Positions 21,812 through 32,024 of a DNA stretch of 64,000 nucleotides are shown here, one piece after another; position 1 is the first letter of the stretch; the number at the start of each line of letters is the position of its first letter. Origin of the DNA: Ignavibacteriota bacterium (GTDB lineage: Bacteria; Bacteroidota; Ignavibacteria; Tepidaquicellales; Tepidaquicellaceae); contig JAPLFJ010000037.1 in assembly GCA_026390735.1 (NCBI GenBank), positions 124,001 through 188,000 on the forward strand, given 5' to 3'. The notes beneath the pieces were generated by a model. The model did no database searches. It was given only the letters and a program-made list of their open reading frames with translations, and was not told the DNA's origin. Position numbers and translations under genes: made by a program.

Positions 21812-22462
21812 TATATATATAAATTGATTTATTATTTATTCAAATACTTAAATATGAATCTGTATCTTTAATAAAACTAATTATGAATACTTTTTACTGA
21901 CTGATTTTCAAAAACTTCTAAAATGTATCTGACGCAATTTGTCTTGTAAATACAAAAATAAATATTATTCCCTCAATTGTCAAAGAAGGATTTTCTCAAT
22001 ATAACCCTGTATTTTGCATAAAAATATGCATAAATATTGTTATAACAATTATATGTAGCAATATTCTGTACCCATAAATAATAATAAAATATTATTGAAA
22101 ATCTTTTAGGCGAAGTTTCGTCGTGGCGGAAGATTTCATATCTGTATATAAATTATTGTCGAATATCTTTCTTTCTATTCCTACTTGCTACTCCATACGC
22201 TGGTAAACCAGAATTATCTTTTCTTATCTTTAACCCTAAAAAATCTCTATCTGCGAATTAGCTTGCTAATCGCTCTTTAAAATCCGCTCTTTCAGCGTCA
22301 TCCGCGTTCCATTCCTTCTTCTATCTTTTCTTGCCATTTTGCGCACATTTTCACTCGTAACTGTTTACTTCCTACTCTTTACTTCCTACTCTTTACTCCC
22401 TTCTCCTTACTTCCTACTTCTTTCTCCCTACTTCTTTCTCCTTACTTCTTTCTCCTTACTTC
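21812..22462. other. Gene-free region with repeated blocks and polypyrimidine tract
   Basis: The left part (21812-22110) is AT-rich and should contain the tldD promoter, not located. Then follow an imperfect TTCGTC-GT-GGCGGA palindrome (22117-22130), CTGGT-AA-ACCAG (22200-22211), the TTTAACCCTAAAAAA phrase and a block (about 22299-22385) that recurs at 23664-23748. It ends in the polypyrimidine tract 22365-22490. The plus-strand frame 22339-22560 is repeat sequence, not a gene. Confidence 0.6.
22299..22385. repeat. Direct repeat block A, copy 1
   Basis: About 85 bp starting CATCCGCGTTCCATTCC and containing CTTTTCTTGCCATTTTGC and TTTTCACTCGTAACTG match 23664-23748 with only a few differences. 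The two copies flank the region 22.4-23.7 kb, including the small TPR gene. Confidence 0.75.
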
Positions 22463-22490
22463 CTACTCCTTACTCCCTAAACCCCTCGCC
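22365..22490. repeat. Polypyrimidine tract of TACTCCCT/TACTTCCT units
   Basis: The plus strand is almost free of G for over 100 bp, with loosely repeated TACTTCCTACTCTTTACT and ACTTCTTTCTCC phrases. It runs into the 3' end of the TPR gene at 22463. A second such tract lies at 23728-23860. Long homopurine-homopyrimidine stretches can form triplex or slipped structures. Confidence 0.7.
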
Positions 22491-22912
22491 TCTATTATAT
22501 TCGCCGACAACTCATACTCATATTCCGGAAACAATATTATCGCCGTCTCCCAGTCATTAATCGCTTCCTGATATTTCTTCAAAGCAAAATGACTTATTCC
22601 CCTGTAATAATAAAATTCACTGAACCTGTTTTCCAGAATACATCCCGTTAACTTTACTATTGTCTCCTCAAATTTCCCTTCCTCATAATGTGTCATCGCT
22701 TCTGCATATTTCAGATTCAGACTATCTTCCAGATTATTCACAGGCCGTGCAAAATGGTCTTTTCCAGATAACTTAGATAACCTGAACGGATATTCTTCTT
22801 CATCACCATCTTCATCTTCATCCTCAGTATTTCGCTTCTTAAAAAATAAATACACGAAGTATCCCGCCACGAATACCGCTATCCCGATTATTATTCTGTC
22901 TATGTCAGTCAT
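22463..22912 (-). CDS. Small membrane-anchored TPR protein
   Basis: The 149-residue protein has one N-terminal membrane helix (about 7-24, IIIGIAVFVAGYFVYLFF) followed by KKR and an acidic run (EDEDEDGDEEE), then two tetratricopeptide-like units. These contain LKYAEAMTHYEEGKFEETI and FYYYRGISHFALKKYQEAIN, the second followed by DWETAIILFP. It is probably anchored in the inner membrane with a cytoplasmic TPR scaffold. Partner unknown. It is the only gene in a 2.3 kb repeat-rich stretch; its start at 22912 is consistent with the hydrophobic N-terminus. Confidence 0.75.
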   Translation of the reverse strand: MTDIDRIIIGIAVFVAGYFVYLFFKKRNTEDEDEDGDEEEYPFRLSKLSGKDHFARPVNNLEDSLNLKYAEAMTHYEEGKFEETIVKLTGCILENRFSEFYYYRGISHFALKKYQEAINDWETAIILFPEYEYELSANIIEARGLGSKE

Positions 22913-23084
22913 TACCTTTTGCTAAATTGTAAATATCAATTTATTAAATCACTCGTTTGTAAACTGTAAATTATCTTTAATCCAAAAATCGCTCTTCCTT
23001 AAACTTTAATAAAGTCAATCTATATACATAATTAATATCAGTGAAAATCCGTTCTTCCCGCGTCAATCCGCGTTCCATTCCTTC

Positions 23085-23465
23085 TTTTTAATATTTCCGT
23101 ATCTTTCATTTATTTAGCAGGAGAAGTTCTCTTCATACTTCTTACTCCATACTCCCTACTTCTTAACTTCTCTAACCCTAAAAAAATCTCTATCCGCTCT
23201 TATCCGCTCTTTCCGCGTCATCCGCGTTCCATTCCTTCTCTTAATTCATCATTCCGCGTTCTTTGCGTCCGCCGTGGCGGAATCATTCATAATTGAAGAA
23301 GTCATCAGCGTTCCATTCCTTCTCTTAATATTCATAATTGAAGAAGTCATCCGCGTTCCATTCCTTCCTTTTAATATTTCCGTATCTTTCATTTATTTAG
23401 CGGGAGAAGTTCTCTTCATACTTCTTACTCCATACTCCCTACTTCTTCACTTCTCTAACCCTGAA
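23085..23465. repeat. Direct repeat block B, two copies 284 bp apart
   Basis: The sequence beginning TTTTAATATTTCCGTATC, with GAGAAGTTCTCTTCATAC and TACTCCATACTCCCTAC, appears at about 23085-23180 and again at 23369-23465 with few changes. Confidence 0.75.
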
Positions 23466-23667
23466 AAATCTCTTTCTCTAATCTTATTTCGTGCCTTTCG
23501 TGAATTTCGCGGGAGAATCTCTTTCTTTAATCTTTATCCCTGAAAAATCTCTATCCGCTCTTATCCGTTCTTTCGGCGTCATCCGCGTTCCATTCCTTCT
23601 CTTAATTCATCATTCCGCGTTCTTTGCGTCCGCCGTGGCGGAATCATTCATAATTGAAGAAGTCATC
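23188..23667. repeat. Direct repeat block C, two copies 361 bp apart, each with the TCCGCCGTGGCGGA palindrome
   Basis: A ~118-bp unit starting CTCTATCCGCTCTTATCC and ending AATTGAAGAAGTCATC occurs at 23188-23306 and 23549-23667. Each copy contains TTCTTTGCG followed by the perfect palindrome (23268-23281 and 23629-23642). Confidence 0.75.
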
Positions 23668-23748
23668 CGCGTTCCATTCCTTCTTCTATCTTTTCTTGCC
23701 ATTTTGCACACGTTTTCACTCGTAACTGTTTACTTCCTACTCTTTACT
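23664..23748. repeat. Direct repeat block A, copy 2
   Basis: Matches 22299-22385; one visible difference is GCACACG in place of GCGCACA before the shared TTTTCACTCGTAACTG. Confidence 0.75.
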
Positions 23749-23860
23749 CCCTACTCTTTACTCCCTTCTCCATACTCCCTTCTCTTTACTCCCTACTCTT
23801 TACTCCCTACTCTTTACTCCCTTCTCCATACTCCCTACTTCTTTCTCCCTACTTCCCAAA
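23728..23860. repeat. Second polypyrimidine tract
   Basis: Tandem-like CTACTCTTTACTCC and CTTCTCCATACTCC phrases with almost no G on the plus strand, similar to 22365-22490. It ends about 25 bp before the first dyad at 23886. Confidence 0.7.
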
Positions 23861-23885
23861 CCACATTCCTGTCACTAAATTCTTA

Positions 23886-23938
23886 TCTCAAAATGAGACT
23901 TTTCGTCTCAAAATGAGACTTTTCGTCTCAAAATGAGA
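23886..23938. promoter_or_regulatory. Three phased TCTCA-N3-TGAGA dyads (candidate enhancer sites)
   Basis: GTCTCAAAATGAGACTTTTC is repeated with an exact 20-bp period; the TCTCA half-sites start at 23886, 23906 and 23926. Each unit is a perfect inverted repeat with AAA in the centre. The half-sites and period are identical to the pair at 12884 and 12904. The array lies about 85-135 bp upstream of the -24 element at 24021. Confidence 0.8.
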
Positions 23939-24020
23939 CAGTTTTCTCCATTAATTTCCTATCGTTCACAAATAATCCCCTAAAACACTCTTTAAACAAC
24001 GTTTTATCATTCTCATTATC

Positions 24021-24036
24021 TGGCACAACAATTGCA
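24021..24036 (+). promoter_or_regulatory. Sigma-54 (RpoN) -24/-12 promoter
   Basis: TGGCACAACAATTGCA fits the sigma-54 consensus, with GG and GC ten bases apart and a perfect TTGCA box. It would give a transcript starting near 24048 that reads through the truncated surface gene and the CRISPR repeat to the hairpin at 24594-24620. Confidence 0.75.
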
Positions 24037-24079: not shown

Positions 24080-24145
24080 GGAAAATCCCCCTGTTTATGT
24101 CACTAAAAAACTAAACATAAAATTTATCTAAGGAGTAAATTTACA

Positions 24146-24505
24146 ATGAACTCAAAAGAAATTAACATAATCATACTGGCAGTATTATTCTGCTTTTTCA
24201 CACTGAACTCCGCACTGCCTCAGGTAGCAATTAACACAGACGGCGCTCAGCCAAACACCAAGTCCATTCTTGACGTTGCTTCAACATCTCTCGGAGTACT
24301 TCTCCCGCGAATGACTGAGGCACAAAGAACAGCCATCACAAGTCCTCCGCAGGGATTACTCGTTTTCCAGATAGACGGCGGTGCAAATGCAGGTCTCTAT
24401 TATGCAACAGGCACTGGAAATAACTGGACATTAATATTTCACTCAAACACTACCGCAATCACTGGCAACGGCTCCGTTGTGGTTTGCTTTCAAAAGTTTG
24501 TTTGA
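24146..24505 (+). CDS. Truncated surface protein whose 3' end is a CRISPR repeat
   Basis: The frame encodes 119 residues: a signal peptide (about 1-25), then PQVAINTDGAQPNTKSILDVAS, GVLLPRMTEAQRTAI and GLYYATGTGNNW, an N-terminal module common on long Bacteroidota surface or tail-fibre-like proteins. Relatives with this module normally continue for several hundred residues. Here the frame reaches the CRISPR repeat at 24476 exactly at a codon boundary, and the last nine residues (VVVCFQKFV) and the TGA stop are encoded by the repeat. The start is well supported by AAGGAG eight to ten bases upstream. It is probably the remnant of a gene whose 3' part was lost by deletion or recombination with the array; the remnant is probably non-functional as a surface protein, though still under a sigma-54-type promoter. 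Confidence 0.7.
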   Translation: MNSKEINIIILAVLFCFFTLNSALPQVAINTDGAQPNTKSILDVASTSLGVLLPRMTEAQRTAITSPPQGLLVFQIDGGANAGLYYATGTGNNWTLIFHSNTTAITGNGSVVVCFQKFV

Positions 24506-24522
24506 CGAATTTTGCATAGAAT
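24476..24522 (+). CRISPR. Solitary type II-C CRISPR repeat
   Basis: The segment starts GTTGTGGTTTGCTTTCA, the usual opening of long (~46-47 nt) repeats in Bacteroidota type II-C loci. Its first ~16 bases pair with the anti-repeat of the tracrRNA at 30406-30420, allowing one bulged base. No second copy was found within the window, so no spacer can be delimited; the 3' boundary is set by typical length. The repeat is on the plus strand, facing the 3' end of cas2. It may be the last survivor of a deleted array, a guide-like RNA gene, or an assembly collapse. Confidence 0.7.
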
Positions 24523-24593
24523 ACATATTCGTTAACTTACTTAAACACAAAGTAGTTATGAGTTTTTCGATTTGTGAAAAAACGTCAAAAAGG

Positions 24594-24620
24594 AATGGGT
24601 TATACTCAGTATAACCCATT
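24594..24620. terminator. Strong hairpin terminator between CRISPR repeat and cas2
   Basis: A perfect 12-bp stem (AATGGGTTATAC/GTATAACCCATT) with a 3-nt loop is followed on the plus strand by TTTTTATT and on the minus strand by CCTTTTTG. It can end the plus-strand surface-gene/CRISPR transcript and also the cas operon from the other side. Confidence 0.85.
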
Positions 24621-24628
24621 TTTTATTC

Positions 24629-24958
<330 letters not shown>

Positions 24959-25867
24959 TTAATCTAAATAAGGATAAACAATTTCTTTTGTTTCTCCCAT
25001 AAAACATTTCGCAAGAGATGCCGTTGTTCTTTGCAGTCCGACCATCAAAGGACTTTTCTCTAAAGCAAAGAAAATATCAATAGTCGGAATTGATAAAAGC
25101 ATTCTTTTTAATTCGGTTGTTATTTCTGAATAATCTATTCCTTGTTTTACTATATTTAAAACTACTTCATCAACGAATGGTCTGTACGGTTCCATAATGT
25201 CATCGGCAAGACAGTAAGCATTGTATTTATTCTTATGGTGTATTCCGAGTGTTGGAAGTAGCCCCGATGCAACAAGTCCACGAGCAACTATTGCTCTTAA
25301 TATTGCATATCCATAATTTAAAAGATTATTAGGTGGAAGACCAAACCTGTCCCTTGTGAATTTTAATTCATTAGGGAATAGGTTTTTCCAGTAGTATGCA
25401 GAAGCTCTTGCTTCAAGATTCTTGCTGTCATTTGATTTCACTTCATTAACCCACACAAACATATTTGCAGAATTCAAATTATTCTTTTTCAGCAAAGCAG
25501 CCTGATTATAAATTTTAGCAGAAACAGTTTGCTGCCAGAGGTTTTTAATCAATGGTTTTTTGGCAGTGATTTGTTCTTTAAACCTTTCCGACTGTACAGA
25601 ATTCCCATCAAGGTTCAAAAGCATTGAAGTCGGCATATGTTTTTCATTGCACATTATTACAGCAACATTATTTTCAATCAGTTTAGCAATAAGGTATTGA
25701 GAAATCGTAACTCCGTGATGGTCAATAATAACAACTCCAATATCTTCAATCGGTTGTGAAATAGTTTCTTCAATACCTTTCTCAGGTTTCTGTCTTTTAA
25801 TCTTCATTTGTTCATCTTGCGAAAACAGATAACAGGGATTACCAAAGTAAAGAGTTTTCTTAATCAT
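24959..25867 (-). CDS. cas1: CRISPR-associated integrase Cas1 (type II)
   Basis: Cas1 catalyses spacer integration at the leader end of the array. The 302-residue protein has the expected metal-binding residues: E152 in NLEARAS, H210 in TLGIHHKNKYNAY and the acidic LADDIMEPYRPFVDE stretch (D222/D223, E226). The N-terminal YFGNPCYL and DIGVVIIDHHGVTIS form the usual beta-strand domain. The gene abuts cas9 upstream and cas2 downstream with zero-base spacing. No csn2 or cas4 is present, which sets the locus as type II-C. Adaptation should be possible from the protein side. Confidence 0.95.
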   Translation of the reverse strand: MIKKTLYFGNPCYLFSQDEQMKIKRQKPEKGIEETISQPIEDIGVVIIDHHGVTISQYLIAKLIENNVAVIMCNEKHMPTSMLLNLDGNSVQSERFKEQITAKKPLIKNLWQQTVSAKIYNQAALLKKNNLNSANMFVWVNEVKSNDSKNLEARASAYYWKNLFPNELKFTRDRFGLPPNNLLNYGYAILRAIVARGLVASGLLPTLGIHHKNKYNAYCLADDIMEPYRPFVDEVVLNIVKQGIDYSEITTELKRMLLSIPTIDIFFALEKSPLMVGLQRTTASLAKCFMGETKEIVYPYLD

Positions 25868-28800
25868 TTATTCGATATAAGGTTTAATATTTCCAATTCT
25901 ATCCATAGATAATATTATGCAATGATTCTTAATCATTGTTCCTGAATCTTCTCTTTTTTCACTATTCCCAACTAATTCAACTTTCCCATCCCAAGCACGT
26001 TGATTTTTATTGCCAGAACCTAGTTCGATTTTTTCTAGTAATGATTTTGCAATATTGTGTGGAACAAACTCACATTTACCACCCGTACTACTCACCATTT
26101 TGTAAGTTCTTTTAAAAATATTAGATTTATTCTGCCAATCAATTACTTTCGTTTCAAGTTCATCCTCTGTTGGTAAATAAACTAAATCATTTGGCGAAAG
26201 AACAATTTTCTTGTAACCTTCTTTTTCTTCTGCAATTTCTTTTCCTTGAATAATTTTCTCAATTGCCTGATGAACAGATATAGAGAGCATTTCTTCTCTG
26301 ATTCCTTCAGCATTTTCGTACATTACAAAATAAACTATACCGCCTTTATCCGTTTCTACATATTTCCCTTTAAATTTGTCATCTTCCTTCTTTTTCTCAT
26401 ATCTTGTAACCTTTTTTATTGGTCTTCCTGCTTTTTTGAAAAGGTTCTCTAGACCTTCCCCTTCAAAAGCCTCTTTTGAATTCCCATCATATTCATCCAA
26501 ATGCATTTTCAGTAAATAGGGAAGCGGTAAATTACTTTTATCTTTTGATGAATTCAAATTTTCTAATATCTCATATTTCTTAATTATTTTCTCGGCATAT
26601 GGTATGTTATTAATTTTGTCGTATGTAAAAGATGAATCTACCGTCACTTTCTTTGAAGCATATTCATTGAAGACTGCTATTTTAACTTTATCTATCTTTT
26701 CACCATTTATATCCAATAAAGGATTTTTAGAAAGATGTTTTTTAATTGCATCAATATCATTGTTAAGATTACTTAATAACATCTTAACTTGCTCTCTTAC
26801 TACTTTATCATATATATATGATCTTGGTTTACCTGTTTCGTCATTTACACTTTTCTGCCTCTCAACATGAATCTTAACTGCATCTATTGTTTTCTTTTCC
26901 TCGATTTCTTTTAAATAAATAATCCCTTGAGGCTCTTTGAACATCGATTTTCTGACAGATAACCATTTTTTATTAGATTTTTGAGACCTTGATTCCTTAA
27001 TCCATTTACCGTCTTTATTTACCCATGTTAAATATTTATTCTTTGGTTTGGAAATTACTTTGTTATTTGTTTTAAAAGAAACAATTATTTCATTTAATTT
27101 ATCTTTCGCCTCTTTATTAAAACCTTCCCAAGGTAATTTAAACTCTCTGATTTTTCCTTTCACTAATTTACGCTTAATGTCTTTTAATTCGCTTTCGCTA
27201 TCAACAGAACTTAGTGAATTCAAATATCTTATATGTTCTCGAGTAGTTGCGGCAATTATTAAAGCATCTAATGCATGATGCCTATGGTCAATCCTTTTTA
27301 TGTCGGTTTCAGGTTCTGGTGTCTCTAAATGGTAATTGTTGCGATCATTCACATCTTTGATTATTAATTGCTTGCCTATTATCTTTTCTAATCTTTCAAA
27401 TCGAGGTTTCATTAAATCCTTCCATACTTTTGTTAAACCCCATTCTCTTTTAAGTTCTGCTGTTATACTTCCTCCTGTATATATTATTCCCGCTTTATCT
27501 TTTACGATAGGATAAAGCAATTCAGCAACTTTTCTTGTTATATATCTCGTGTCGTTTAATTGTCTGGAAATAAAATCCTTTGGCACTTCATCACATAATA
27601 AATTTTTTAGTTTCTTGCCTCTAAAATTAGATTTACACAATGCTACGTATTCATCGTAATTTAGAATAGTGAACTCTTTTCCGTTCCTATTTATTGTTTT
27701 TGGTGATTCACTTATGAAATTGGCAGCCAATTTGTTGCCTTTTTCTTTATTAATATCACTCTCACAAATTACTAAATTATCCATAGAGTCATACTTAAGT
27801 TTGGCACGAGGTATTATATGCTCTAACTCATATTCATTCGTAAATAATTTGGTTATAGAAATTGCTTTTCCTGTGTAAGGTGAACAGCATTTTTGCTCTA
27901 ACCATAAAGCATATTTCTTTATTTCAGAATTTGTTGGTTTCCAATTCTTATCTTCAGATTTCATTTTCTTTTCATATTCGAAATAATTTGAGCCTGAAGA
28001 ACTTTCATATATCCTAAATTTATCTACATCAATAGGGGAGTTTGGGTTTGGTTTAGTTTCAAAAGGAAATCCGTCATTTATTAATTCAATTAACAAATTC
28101 TTTATTCTCTCTTTGTCACGGAAATTCTTTGAACCGGATTCAGATAATTTCTTTCTTTCTTCTTCATTTTTCTTTAATTCTCTTCCAAGTTCTATATGTA
28201 TTTCTTCAGGCTGTCCATATTTTTCCCATAAATCTTTAACAACAAACAAAGTCTCTCTAATAATTTGTTCAACTATTGGATTTCTCAAACTATTATTTGG
28301 TATTAATTTCATTACATCAATATCTTTGTAATCAGCATATTTATCATTGTTTTCTCTTTCAGAATGAACACCATAGACTAAATAACAAGCTAAGAAAGTT
28401 TCCAGTCCTTGAAAATCATTTTCTGATTTGAGATTTCTTATTTCAATTATATCTCTTGTTCTATCGTCAATGTTTTCATCATATTCACCTGTAATAATTT
28501 TCGATATACGGTTCTTGGTCTCATCGTTTATTAATTCATTCTTCCAGTATATTCCGCACCTCATAACTTGCAGCAATTTCTTAATAGCTTTAGAAGAATA
28601 AGCCGCATATTGCTTTTCCTTAAATTCTGGTTGATTTGTTAATTCTTCTATTATTTCTTCTGATAGGTTAAAACCATTAGTTGCATTTCTTAATGCTGTT
28701 CCTATTCCTTTCTTCGATATTTCAATATTAGAAGAACTAATGGAGTACATAATGTGCCAAAGTTTGTAAAATCTCTTTTCATCATTTAATAATCCATCTC

Positions 28801-30367
28801 CTTCGAAATTATGTTTGTTAAATACTTTTCTGAAGTATGCTTTTGTTTCATTCCCTTTTAGTTTATCTCTGGCTGCAAATAAATTTATCTTATGTGTCTT
28901 TGTAGATAAGTATTTCTTGTCTATAACTTTTAAAATAGCAGTTTCTGATACCTCTGTACTTTTATCGAATAAAGCGAACACCTTTTCTTTAATGTCATTA
29001 TTTACGAAATCCTTTGTTACGTCATAATCAATATGTAGTTTCCCATTAATTATTTTATCTTTTTCAAGTATTCTAATATTATGAATATCTTGCCAGATAC
29101 GAAACTCCTGAAATTCAGGGGATGATTTTGGTGCAACTTTATATCCTTTTTTGATAACATCATTATCTTTCTTAAATTTGCCCTTTTCATATTTGCATAA
29201 ACTGATGGAATGTTTTTGGGACTTCAATTCACGTTGATAGTAAATAATATCTTTTGTAAGTAAATAATAAATGTCGTGTGTCTGAAGTTCCTTCTGTTTT
29301 GATACATTATGTTTATACAATTCTAATGAAATATCTTTTAATTTGGATGTATCCTTTAATTCCGGATAAAATTCGCACTGTTTATTCCATATCTCTTCAA
29401 ATTCTTTTTGATATAAACTTCTGTCTATTATTTGTTGTCTAATTCTGTAGTTTTTGTCTTTAACAAGATGATTGAAGAAGTATTCACCTACATTAAGTTT
29501 AGAATTTTTAATGTCCTGTTCAAGGGCAACTTTCGACATTTCCCAATCTTCTGGTTTTGGTTGTTCGAATTTTACTTTCTCATCACCATTTTTCAGTGTT
29601 TCCTTTGTAATTAGAAAATTCAACTCTTTACCCAACCAATCTGGTTTGTTGATTCGCTTTTCTTCCCAAGTATAATTTCCGGCTTTAATAATAAATACTT
29701 TACTAAATTGTTTCTTAAAGTTTTTTTCGGAAACCTCCTGTCGCTTTTCCTCTATTGAATCGACTTTTAAAATTTCAACCCATTTTTCAATTTTCTTTTC
29801 TTCGTCTCCTTTTTTATCTTTTCTACTGCTTCTAAAACCGCGTCTTTGGTTCATCATATATATTATTCTGACTAACTCATTCAAAGATATCTTTTCTTTT
29901 AAAGCTTTCTTCCTTAAATAATACACAACCCAGTCTATGGATACCGATAATTTACCATCCTTGTTTTTAACTCCTAGAACTTCAGTAGCTTCTTCTATTG
30001 TCTTTTGTTCTATTGCGATAAAGTCATTAATATTAAATTTAAAATCCTGATTTTCTTTCAGTGCGGCTTTAAAGTTTTCCGGGTATTCATTATTTAGCCA
30101 ACCTAATATCTTTAATACTTTTATTAATCTTGTTCTTCTTAATACATATCTCTGCTTTAATCTTCTGCTGCCTCTCTTTTGTCTTCTAAAAGCTGCTTTT
30201 GTTTCTACAGTACTGCCACTATTGAATTTATTTAGCATCTCCCCATCTAAAGGTATTATTCTGCTTCCCATCCACTCAATGTTGCCTTTCTCTCCAAATT
30301 CTTCTAAGTTAACAAGGCATCCACCTATTGAATTTGTTCCGATATCAAGACCAAGAATTTTTGTCAT
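25868..30367 (-). CDS. cas9: Type II-C Cas9 RNA-guided DNA endonuclease
   Basis: Cas9 cuts DNA matched by a crRNA:tracrRNA duplex. The 1499-residue protein is intact: RuvC-I ILGLDIGTNSIGG with catalytic D8; arginine-rich bridge helix FRRQKRGSRRLKQRYVLRR (about 60-80); RuvC-II EIHIELGRELKK with E726; HNH YELEHIIPRAKL with H850, followed by DNLVICESDINKEKGN; RuvC-III DHRHHALDALIIAATT with D1034. It lies in the upper part of the length range for Bacteroidota II-C enzymes. Residues from about 1050 to the end form the wedge/PAM-interacting part, where specificity cannot be read. It is the first gene of cas9-cas1-cas2, divergent from the tracrRNA at 30406. Confidence 0.97.
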   Translation of the reverse strand: MTKILGLDIGTNSIGGCLVNLEEFGEKGNIEWMGSRIIPLDGEMLNKFNSGSTVETKAAFRRQKRGSRRLKQRYVLRRTRLIKVLKILGWLNNEYPENFKAALKENQDFKFNINDFIAIEQKTIEEATEVLGVKNKDGKLSVSIDWVVYYLRKKALKEKISLNELVRIIYMMNQRRGFRSSRKDKKGDEEKKIEKWVEILKVDSIEEKRQEVSEKNFKKQFSKVFIIKAGNYTWEEKRINKPDWLGKELNFLITKETLKNGDEKVKFEQPKPEDWEMSKVALEQDIKNSKLNVGEYFFNHLVKDKNYRIRQQIIDRSLYQKEFEEIWNKQCEFYPELKDTSKLKDISLELYKHNVSKQKELQTHDIYYLLTKDIIYYQRELKSQKHSISLCKYEKGKFKKDNDVIKKGYKVAPKSSPEFQEFRIWQDIHNIRILEKDKIINGKLHIDYDVTKDFVNNDIKEKVFALFDKSTEVSETAILKVIDKKYLSTKTHKINLFAARDKLKGNETKAYFRKVFNKHNFEGDGLLNDEKRFYKLWHIMYSISSSNIEISKKGIGTALRNATNGFNLSEEIIEELTNQPEFKEKQYAAYSSKAIKKLLQVMRCGIYWKNELINDETKNRISKIITGEYDENIDDRTRDIIEIRNLKSENDFQGLETFLACYLVYGVHSERENNDKYADYKDIDVMKLIPNNSLRNPIVEQIIRETLFVVKDLWEKYGQPEEIHIELGRELKKNEEERKKLSESGSKNFRDKERIKNLLIELINDGFPFETKPNPNSPIDVDKFRIYESSSGSNYFEYEKKMKSEDKNWKPTNSEIKKYALWLEQKCCSPYTGKAISITKLFTNEYELEHIIPRAKLKYDSMDNLVICESDINKEKGNKLAANFISESPKTINRNGKEFTILNYDEYVALCKSNFRGKKLKNLLCDEVPKDFISRQLNDTRYITRKVAELLYPIVKDKAGIIYTGGSITAELKREWGLTKVWKDLMKPRFERLEKIIGKQLIIKDVNDRNNYHLETPEPETDIKRIDHRHHALDALIIAATTREHIRYLNSLSSVDSESELKDIKRKLVKGKIREFKLPWEGFNKEAKDKLNEIIVSFKTNNKVISKPKNKYLTWVNKDGKWIKESRSQKSNKKWLSVRKSMFKEPQGIIYLKEIEEKKTIDAVKIHVERQKSVNDETGKPRSYIYDKVVREQVKMLLSNLNNDIDAIKKHLSKNPLLDINGEKIDKVKIAVFNEYASKKVTVDSSFTYDKINNIPYAEKIIKKYEILENLNSSKDKSNLPLPYLLKMHLDEYDGNSKEAFEGEGLENLFKKAGRPIKKVTRYEKKKEDDKFKGKYVETDKGGIVYFVMYENAEGIREEMLSISVHQAIEKIIQGKEIAEEKEGYKKIVLSPNDLVYLPTEDELETKVIDWQNKSNIFKRTYKMVSSTGGKCEFVPHNIAKSLLEKIELGSGNKNQRAWDGKVELVGNSEKREDSGTMIKNHCIILSMDRIGNIKPYIE

Positions 30368-30405: not shown

Positions 30406-30487
30406 TGAAGCAAACCACAATAAGGATTATTCCGTAGTGAGGTTTACCTCTAGGTTTTGCCCTCGTCCTTAACGGGGGCTTTTTTTA
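30406..30487 (+). ncRNA. tracrRNA of the type II-C CRISPR-Cas9 locus
   Basis: The segment opens with the anti-repeat TGAAGCAAACCACAA, complementary to the start of the CRISPR repeat at 24476 with one bulge. It continues with AAGGATTATTCCG (the Bacteroidota II-C nexus-like hairpin), a second small hairpin GAGG-TTTA-CCTC and a terminator stem GCCCTCGT/ACGGGGGC followed by seven Ts. It is read on the plus strand, divergent from cas9, with only a short AT-rich gap between. Sequence and order of hairpins make the call strong; exact ends need RNA data. Confidence 0.88.
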
Positions 30488-30945
30488 TTACCTTTATTAA
30501 TTTATTCTTTCAAAGAAAATCTATATTATCATCTGATGATAATATTTTAGGCAGCTTATTATAGGCATAGATATCCTTAAACTAATCATCGTTGTATCAG
30601 TGATTTCCCAATCTCACTTATACCTTGTCAACCCTCCGTAATTAGATTAAGGATTTGTGGAATGTATTATTGTTGAGGTTTTACAGTCGCTAAATCCGTA
30701 ATGAAAATTAAGCATAATATACATTACTTGCAATTTATTTTTCCGTTCTGCTAATATGCAATCTCGAACGGATTGTAAATCTTCTAATGCTCAATTCTAC
30801 CGTTATTCAATCCCGCTGTAATTTATAAATTTAAAGAATATATCTTTTTTCATATTAAACATTTTCCGAGTGAATCCGCTAAATCCGTGCAAATCCGTGT
30901 TCAATTTCTTAAGTGATGGAATTTTATACTTAAATATTATTTGCC

Positions 30946-30971
30946 CAATATGTCAATTATTTGACATATTG
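30946..30971. promoter_or_regulatory. Perfect inverted repeat, possible operator
   Basis: CAATATGTCAA and TTGACATATTG are exact reverse complements separated by TTAT. With no T tract and low GC it looks more like a protein-binding site than a terminator. It lies about 320 bp upstream of the gene at 31290. Confidence 0.5.
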
Positions 30972-31057
30972 TTCAATGCATAATGCAAATATATACATTT
31001 CTACATGTTGATTGATACGTATATAATACGAACCTAATAGGTAGATGATACATATAG

Positions 31058-31134
31058 TGCGGTAATAGTGCGGTGAGTTTGCGGTCGAAGTGCGGTCGGT
31101 TTGCGGTTGAAGTGCGGTTGAAATGCGGTTGCCT
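31058..31134. repeat. Tandem array of seven 11-bp units (TGCGGTNNNNN)
   Basis: TGCGGT occurs at 31058, 31069, 31080, 31091, 31102, 31113 and 31124, always 11 bp apart. The five bases between vary, often as YGAAG or GAGTT/CGGTT. The conserved hexamer with a one-turn period suggests side-by-side protein binding on one helix face. The copy number and period equal those of the array at 556-632, but the sequence differs. Confidence 0.88.
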
Positions 31135-31289
31135 GATTTATTCTTTTGTTTCAGCCTGAAAACACAACCCCTGATAATAAATTCTGTATTGCTTCTTATT
31201 TTACCTTTTTATAACTTGAAACGTTATGTTATAACTGACTTTATTATAAACACTTATTCTATTAAATAAGTTCCCAAAATAATGAAATT

Positions 31290-32024
31290 ATGCCAAAATT
31301 AATTAATACTATTCTTGGAAAAATAAAAGGTACTCTCGGTGATATTACTTTCTATTATAAAGATAATGAACAGCGTATCAAATCCCGTAAACTGCCCCAC
31401 GTGAAATCGCAGGATAATTCTATAAAAGCAAAAAATAACAGGTCAAAATTCGCACAGTCGCACTTCTTTTCGCATGAATTGAAACTACAGCCCGAAATAG
31501 CTGAACTCTGGAAATCTATCGATATTAAAGGCTCTTCACCTTATTTCAAAATTCATGGTTTTAACCGTATGAAATGCACTGTTAATTCTCTTACCGAAGA
31601 AAACGGTATTACTCCCGATAGCATAACTCTGTCAGTTGAAAATCTTGTTTTTCAAAGGAATTCTCTTTCTTTTGATTATAAACTCTACAGAAAATCAGAG
31701 CCCTACCTTCAGCCGCCATACAAACTTTACGTTGCTGCTTATTTAACTATAGGGGCATTGTCCCGCAAAGTACGCGAAAACAGTCTGCACTTCCGATTAA
31801 CTGATATCAATCAAGAAGGAACTGACTTCACAAGCGTAAGTATTGACTTCCTGGAGGCTCTTGCTGAAGATGATATTCCGAAATTAAAGAATCTGTATTT
31901 CTTTATCGCCGCAGTTAAGAAGATTCCGGGTGAGGAAAAATACGAATGGTCCTCTTCTTTCGGGAAAATATTCGATGTTGCAAAATTTGAAAAAGGATGG
32001 TACAACAGCATCGAATTAAATTAA
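31290..32024 (+). CDS. Conserved-looking hypothetical protein
   Basis: I do not recognise this 244-residue protein. It has no signal peptide or membrane segment. The N-terminus LGKIKGTLGDITFYYKDNEQRIKSRKLP resembles the start of some uncharacterised Bacteroidota proteins that begin with a GKxxGxxGxxxxY-type strand; later parts are mixed alpha/beta with SLSFDYKLYRK and LKNLYFFIAAVKKIPGEEKYEW. It stands alone between the 11-bp array and purN, so the array and the inverted repeat at 30946 are candidate control elements. Codon use looks like that of neighbours. Phage structural or nucleoid-associated roles are possible but unsupported. Confidence 0.6.
   Translation: MPKLINTILGKIKGTLGDITFYYKDNEQRIKSRKLPHVKSQDNSIKAKNNRSKFAQSHFFSHELKLQPEIAELWKSIDIKGSSPYFKIHGFNRMKCTVNSLTEENGITPDSITLSVENLVFQRNSLSFDYKLYRKSEPYLQPPYKLYVAAYLTIGALSRKVRENSLHFRLTDINQEGTDFTSVSIDFLEALAEDDIPKLKNLYFFIAAVKKIPGEEKYEWSSSFGKIFDVAKFEKGWYNSIELN

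Follow-up and report, generated by a model that had tools for sequence, protein, structure and literature searches.

Organization of the cas genes and tracrRNA

The window, meaning the whole 64,000-nucleotide stretch analyzed from the draft genome of an uncultured Ignavibacteriota bacterium, carries a type II-C locus composed of cas9-cas1-cas2 only, without csn2 or cas4. All three genes lie on the minus strand: cas2 (24629 to 24958; 109 aa; Pfam CRISPR_Cas2, E = 1.5e-16), cas1 (24959 to 25867; 302 aa; Pfam Cas_Cas1, E = 1.1e-27), and an uninterrupted cas9 (25868 to 30367; 1,499 aa; Pfam RuvC_III and HNH_4). The Cas9 protein, whose closest solved relative is CbCas9, has both RuvC and HNH domains, with the catalytic residues D8, E726, H850, N873, and D1034 in the expected motifs. 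Upstream of cas9, a tracrRNA on the plus strand (30407 to 30488) was recognized from its complementarity to the CRISPR repeat and its fold, and comprises an anti-repeat, a nexus, a G+C-rich hairpin, and a T-run; the anti-repeat, GAAGCAAACCACAA (30407 to 30420), belongs to a contiguous 15-bp pairing with the first 15 nt of the repeat. An Rfam scan of 22 to 32 kb returned no match near gathering scores. Judged from its sequence, the locus looks intact and functional except for the memory of its array.

Known type II-C loci of Ignavibacteria and Bacteroidota, namely those of a congeneric Ignavibacteria MAG (G002/L023), of a genome from a different genus (G008/L024), and of F. columnare (PMC8092290), share with the window the cas9-cas1-cas2 order, the tracrRNA upstream of cas9, the 46- to 47-nt GTTGTGRTTTGCTTTC repeats, and a leader between the array and cas2, with the array read leader-ward. 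They hold several to 67 repeats, whereas the window has one repeat and no spacers, and a gene abuts the distal end of that repeat without a gap. The window Cas9 is 81 to 90% identical over three blocks to that of G008, from another genus, whereas the Cas9 of the congener G002 (L174, 5315 to 9796) gave no tblastn match to the window Cas9 (25868 to 30367), although cas1 and cas2 of G002 are 82 to 90% identical to those of the window. This combination points to a probable exchange of Cas9. Beyond the tracrRNA, a TGCGGT motif recurs with an 11-bp period at 31054 to 31131, upstream of a 244-aa open reading frame (ORF) at 31290.

A single complete repeat beside its leader

Alignment with the arrays of relatives identified one full-length, leader-proximal type II-C repeat of 47 nt at 24476 to 24522 on the plus strand. 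The identity of this repeat was tested against relatives, which hold GTTGTGGTTTGCTTTCAA... in arrays at the same place beside cas2; the repeat starts 153 nt from the cas2 stop, compared with ∼157 to 159 nt in relatives, where the distance is counted from the end of the cas2 match. Within the window, GTTGTGGTTTGCTTTCAAAAG occurs once, and only 0.01 chance matches would be expected even with 3 mismatches. It is also the only exact copy in the 4.0-Mb, 69-contig draft genome, other matches having 2 mismatches and no array context. A type II-C array comprises at least two repeats separated by spacers. The cas genes, tracrRNA, leader, and repeat agree with the definition of type II-C, but the array as assembled does not, since it has one repeat, and neither a second repeat nor a spacer was found in the window or in the 69 contigs. 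The 44-nt core of the repeat was likewise absent from viral contigs and from 293 other genomes of the class.

The region between the repeat and cas2 is well preserved. It consists of a leader (24523 to 24586, plus strand), conserved in an alignment with 44 relatives and holding segments complementary to the 3' half of the repeat, and of a hairpin terminator (24587 to 24627; inverted repeat I11, no strand assigned) in the interval between array and cas2; the fold of 24476 to 24630 scored z = -3.8. The earlier note had implied that only a remnant of a repeat survives here, which does not hold, the entire 47-nt repeat, the leader, and the terminator all being present. The combination of an intact leader-adjacent repeat with a conserved leader is what a collapsed array would show. 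The possibility that the sequence at 24476 is itself an anti-repeat was ruled out, given that the tracrRNA sits at 30407 and 24476 is in the repeat sense.

Across the type II-C leaders of the 44 related loci, segments that could pair with the 3' half of the locus's own repeat were also observed (window region 24500 to 24600). In the distal leader, the mean complementarity was 7.1 nt with the own repeat and 5.75 nt with the repeats of other loci (maximum of 100 permutations, 6.18; kinship ignored), as if repeat and leader co-vary.

Because the tracrRNA is encoded on the plus strand and pairs with the repeat, the crRNA sense is plus, the leader lies at the 3' end of the array, and the abutting gene forms the upstream flank of the first repeat. 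The type II-C arrays of F. columnare are transcribed toward the leader (PMC8092290), which likewise places the gene upstream.

A truncated surface-protein gene ends at the first base of the repeat

The gene in question is a 5' stump of 110 codons encoding part of a secreted or surface protein (24146 to 24475, plus strand), as indicated by its translation and homologs, and is preceded by an AAGGAG ribosome-binding site (24130 to 24135, plus strand) read from the sequence. Its product combines a signal peptide with the module VAINTDG...ILDV-ST-G-LLPRMT-AQR...GLL-FQ-D...W, shared with longer secreted proteins, and matched no Pfam family. All but one of its non-self homologs are embedded in open frames of at least 238 aa, and the two closest (G018 and G022) continue for ∼150 residues or more past the module. 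The match to these two ends at residue 110, where ITGNGS is aligned with ITGSGT in G018; the limit of homology is known to within about three codons. Homologs therefore extend beyond the junction, and the gene is truncated at the boundary of the repeat, which bears out the earlier suggestion that only the N-terminal module of a normally longer protein is encoded here. The same homology, continuing to residue ∼110, ruled out a true spacer in the last 30 nt 5' of the repeat. The rest of the gene was not found beyond cas9, on the far side of the locus, where 30490 to 31290 contains no ORF or homology.

As read, the ORF at 24146 to 24505 (plus strand) encodes 119 aa, the C-terminal end being ITGNGS-VVVCFQKFV*. 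Translation confirmed that the frame opening at 24146 arrives at the repeat start, 24476, after exactly 110 codons (330 nt), and that VVVCFQKFV and the stop are encoded by the first 30 nt of the repeat, the nine terminal codons and the TGA all falling within GTTGTGGTTTGCTTTCAAAAGTTTGTTTGA, which starts at 24476. The statement that the repeat supplies the last nine codons is thus true as read, but it is incidental: frame 1 of the repeat always ends at its TGA (frame 3 ends at a TAG), and any frame-1 ORF that enters the repeat would terminate there, making the nine codons trivial. They are a passive read-through of the repeat, to which we attach no role.

Among 30 relatives with the distal end of the array within the fetched DNA, no convincing case of a gene running into the array in this manner was found, and the nearest ORF of at least 100 aa usually lay 50 to 1,000 nt away. 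The junction at 24476 is therefore unusual, but it is explainable.

A sigma-54 promoter and tandem palindromes upstream of the truncated gene

A perfect match to the consensus of the sigma-54 (-24/-12) promoter, TGGCACAACAATTGCA, is located at 24021 to 24036 on the plus strand. It is preceded by three tandem 15-bp palindromes, [G/A]TCTCAAAATGAGAC, with a 20-bp spacing (23885 to 23939, plus strand), which are putative sites for an enhancer-binding protein. The palindrome GTCTCAAAATGAGAC has 43 copies in the genome at ≤1 mismatch, compared with 3 for the reversed control, often as pairs 20 bp apart, and several other loci have it ahead of a sigma-54 promoter and a secreted-protein gene. Together, palindromes and promoters define a candidate sigma-54 regulon.

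Inspection of loci L178 to L207 showed that about 8 to 9 of 21 palindrome clusters have a -24/-12 promoter (≤1 mismatch) 64 to 300 bp away, and that clusters with such promoters mostly precede secreted-protein genes. Farther upstream, the intergenic region at 22000 to 23880 is rich in pyrimidines and strongly skewed, and contains 14-bp tandem units (CTCTTTACTCCCTA) as well as duplicated blocks of 120 to 178 bp; text-like intergenic sequence of this kind also occurs upstream of purN in G004.

Arrays of relatives and the search for an empty site

The array position beside cas2 is occupied in most of the related genomes that carry cas2. In the same place, the congener G002 has 67 repeats, each of 46 nt, with a 76-nt spacing. 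G008 has at least five 47-nt repeats before its contig ends, and the majority of the other relatives with cas2 show several to 18 or more repeats within the fetched DNA. A comparison with related genomes, as the earlier note had proposed, gave a divided answer: an array does stand at the same cas2 site (67 repeats in G002), but no orthologue of the truncated gene was found in the four congeners searched. The flanking genes were also searched in 27 genomes, and neither an empty site nor an intermediate was found; in the congeners, this is because gene order has been rearranged or the contigs stop short. G004 has the two flanks on different contigs, with the TPR gene adjoining other genes.

In G011 (L009/L025), cas9, cas1, and cas2 are kept, a degenerate repeat-like sequence lies beside cas2, and the next 7.5 kb contains no array. 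By its sequence, this appears to be a decayed type II-C locus, and the loss of the array beside cas2 is thus not unique to the window genome.

Origin of the single-repeat array

The reading that we favor, while giving it an even chance, is that the array of a type II-C locus collapsed, in two steps, to its leader-proximal repeat, without spacers, beside a gene stump. First, a rearrangement would have set the stump against the old distal end of the array; second, homologous recombination between the first and the last repeat would have deleted all spacers, leaving stump, one repeat, leader, and cas2 in succession. The junction coincides with the first base of the repeat, as repeat-repeat recombination would leave it, and the collapse of a whole array to one repeat is described as expected (PMC8047081). 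Because the predicted recombination product is the sequence seen here and such collapse is expected, the two-step order is favored. The window resembles the array collapse considered in that review in retaining the leader-adjacent intact repeat, the leader, and the adaptation genes, and departs from it in having a truncated gene as its distal flank and in that an in vivo origin is putative here.

A single deletion from the interior of the gene to the leader-proximal repeat, removing the 3' end of the gene and the remaining array together, would cover both the truncation and the missing spacers in one event, and the 3' part of the gene is nowhere nearby. Yet it requires the break to fall exactly where the last 47-nt repeat begins, in a unit of ∼76 nt, about 1 in 76 at random, a figure to be read with the boundary known to ∼3 codons, so that a few residual spacer bases may be present. 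This requirement makes one deletion responsible for both losses the less probable course, and we regard it as unlikely. The earlier proposal that a deletion joined the gene to the array is accordingly retained in part: the gene is a 5' stump and a congener has 67 repeats at this place, but one event for both losses is not favored.

A collapse that happened in the assembly is a tentative alternative of more weight. A real multi-spacer array would abut the stump, and the assembler would have merged its identical 47-nt first and last repeats and lost the spacers, which would give the very same letters (true distal flank, one repeat, true leader). The genome is a draft of 69 contigs, and when arrays are assembled from short reads, reads collapse, contigs become chimeric, and the assembly fragments (PMC6617893). 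On the other hand, arrays of 18 to 67 repeats were resolved in comparable drafts of the congener and the family, and no other contig carries an array fragment with this repeat. Common assemblers also finish with k-mers longer than 47 nt, which counts against such a merger.

If the two-step collapse took place in the cell, the solitary repeat and leader could serve Cas1-Cas2 as the starting point for refilling the array; in experiments cited in PMC8047081, adaptation takes place at a lone repeat next to the leader. Until then, the sole available guide would be an extraneous crRNA (ecrRNA) derived from the last ∼22 nt of the stump, upon transcription of the gene.

A possible extraneous crRNA

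By its position relative to the repeat and the polarity of the tracrRNA, the segment at 24454 to 24475 (plus strand) would occupy the guide (spacer) position of this ecrRNA. No strong terminator was found between gene and repeat, the only plus-strand match of the scan being a 6-pair hairpin across the junction. A role of this hairpin, GCAACGGCTCCGTTGT, in selected sequestration of the guide was rejected, as its 4-nt Watson-Crick core arose in 12.5% of shuffled upstream sequences and was not significant. Considering the sigma-54 promoter, the lack of a strong terminator, and the intact tracrRNA pairing, the locus could make an ecrRNA.

Such RNAs tend to be kept in check in type II-C systems by an upstream terminator and a mutated repeat (PMC12080349), safeguards that the window locus, as far as its sequence tells, would lack. 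Like the arrays described in that work, it has a spacerless repeat that would be transcribed first and a guide drawn from the upstream flank; it differs in that this guide would be its only one, that the flank looks like an expressed coding sequence and has a sigma-54 promoter, and that there is neither a strong upstream terminator nor a mutation in the repeat. In C. jejuni, where noncanonical crRNAs are reported (PMC8224270), a host transcript similarly pairs with tracrRNA and could guide Cas9, whereas the predicted mRNA of the window would contain a genuine CRISPR repeat instead of a fortuitous resemblance to one.

Any function for the stump-derived RNA is speculative. With the repeat inside a sigma-54-regulated mRNA, expression of the stump might yield an uninsulated ecrRNA under the control of an enhancer-binding protein, as the only guide of the locus; its targets could be related surface-protein genes in other strains, or DNA entering the cell. 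We consider this scheme as a whole a slim prospect. Allowing up to 3 mismatches, the guide has no second match in the genome, and it has no exact match in viral contigs; a functional target within these sets was rejected. Very improbable, in our assessment, is that the fusion was kept by selection, with tracrRNA-dependent cutting of the sigma-54 transcript at the repeat arming Cas9 against related surface-protein genes. The consensus promoter with its palindromes, the intact repeat-tracrRNA pairing, the absence of a strong terminator separating gene and repeat, and the use of host transcript-derived guides by the C. jejuni II-C Cas9 (PMC8224270) are compatible with such selection. The same lack of matches in the genome and viral contigs speaks against it, as do the occurrence of the fusion in a single genome, without conservation, and the tendency of type II-C systems to suppress such RNAs (PMC12080349).

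Implications

The type II-C locus of the window is real and well preserved, and its array, a single repeat as assembled, is fused to a gene stump, an unusual arrangement that is predicted in principle. Should the collapse prove to be one of assembly, the locus would caution against taking spacerless arrays in draft genomes as biology. If reads show the collapse to be real, it would be a natural case of what reviews predict, the complete collapse of a type II-C array, here with the adaptation genes, leader, repeat, and tracrRNA all retained. Such a locus would offer a clean system for the refilling of a solitary repeat, as well as a system for following the fate of ecrRNA where the upstream gene is expressed, no strong terminator intervenes, and the repeat is unmutated.
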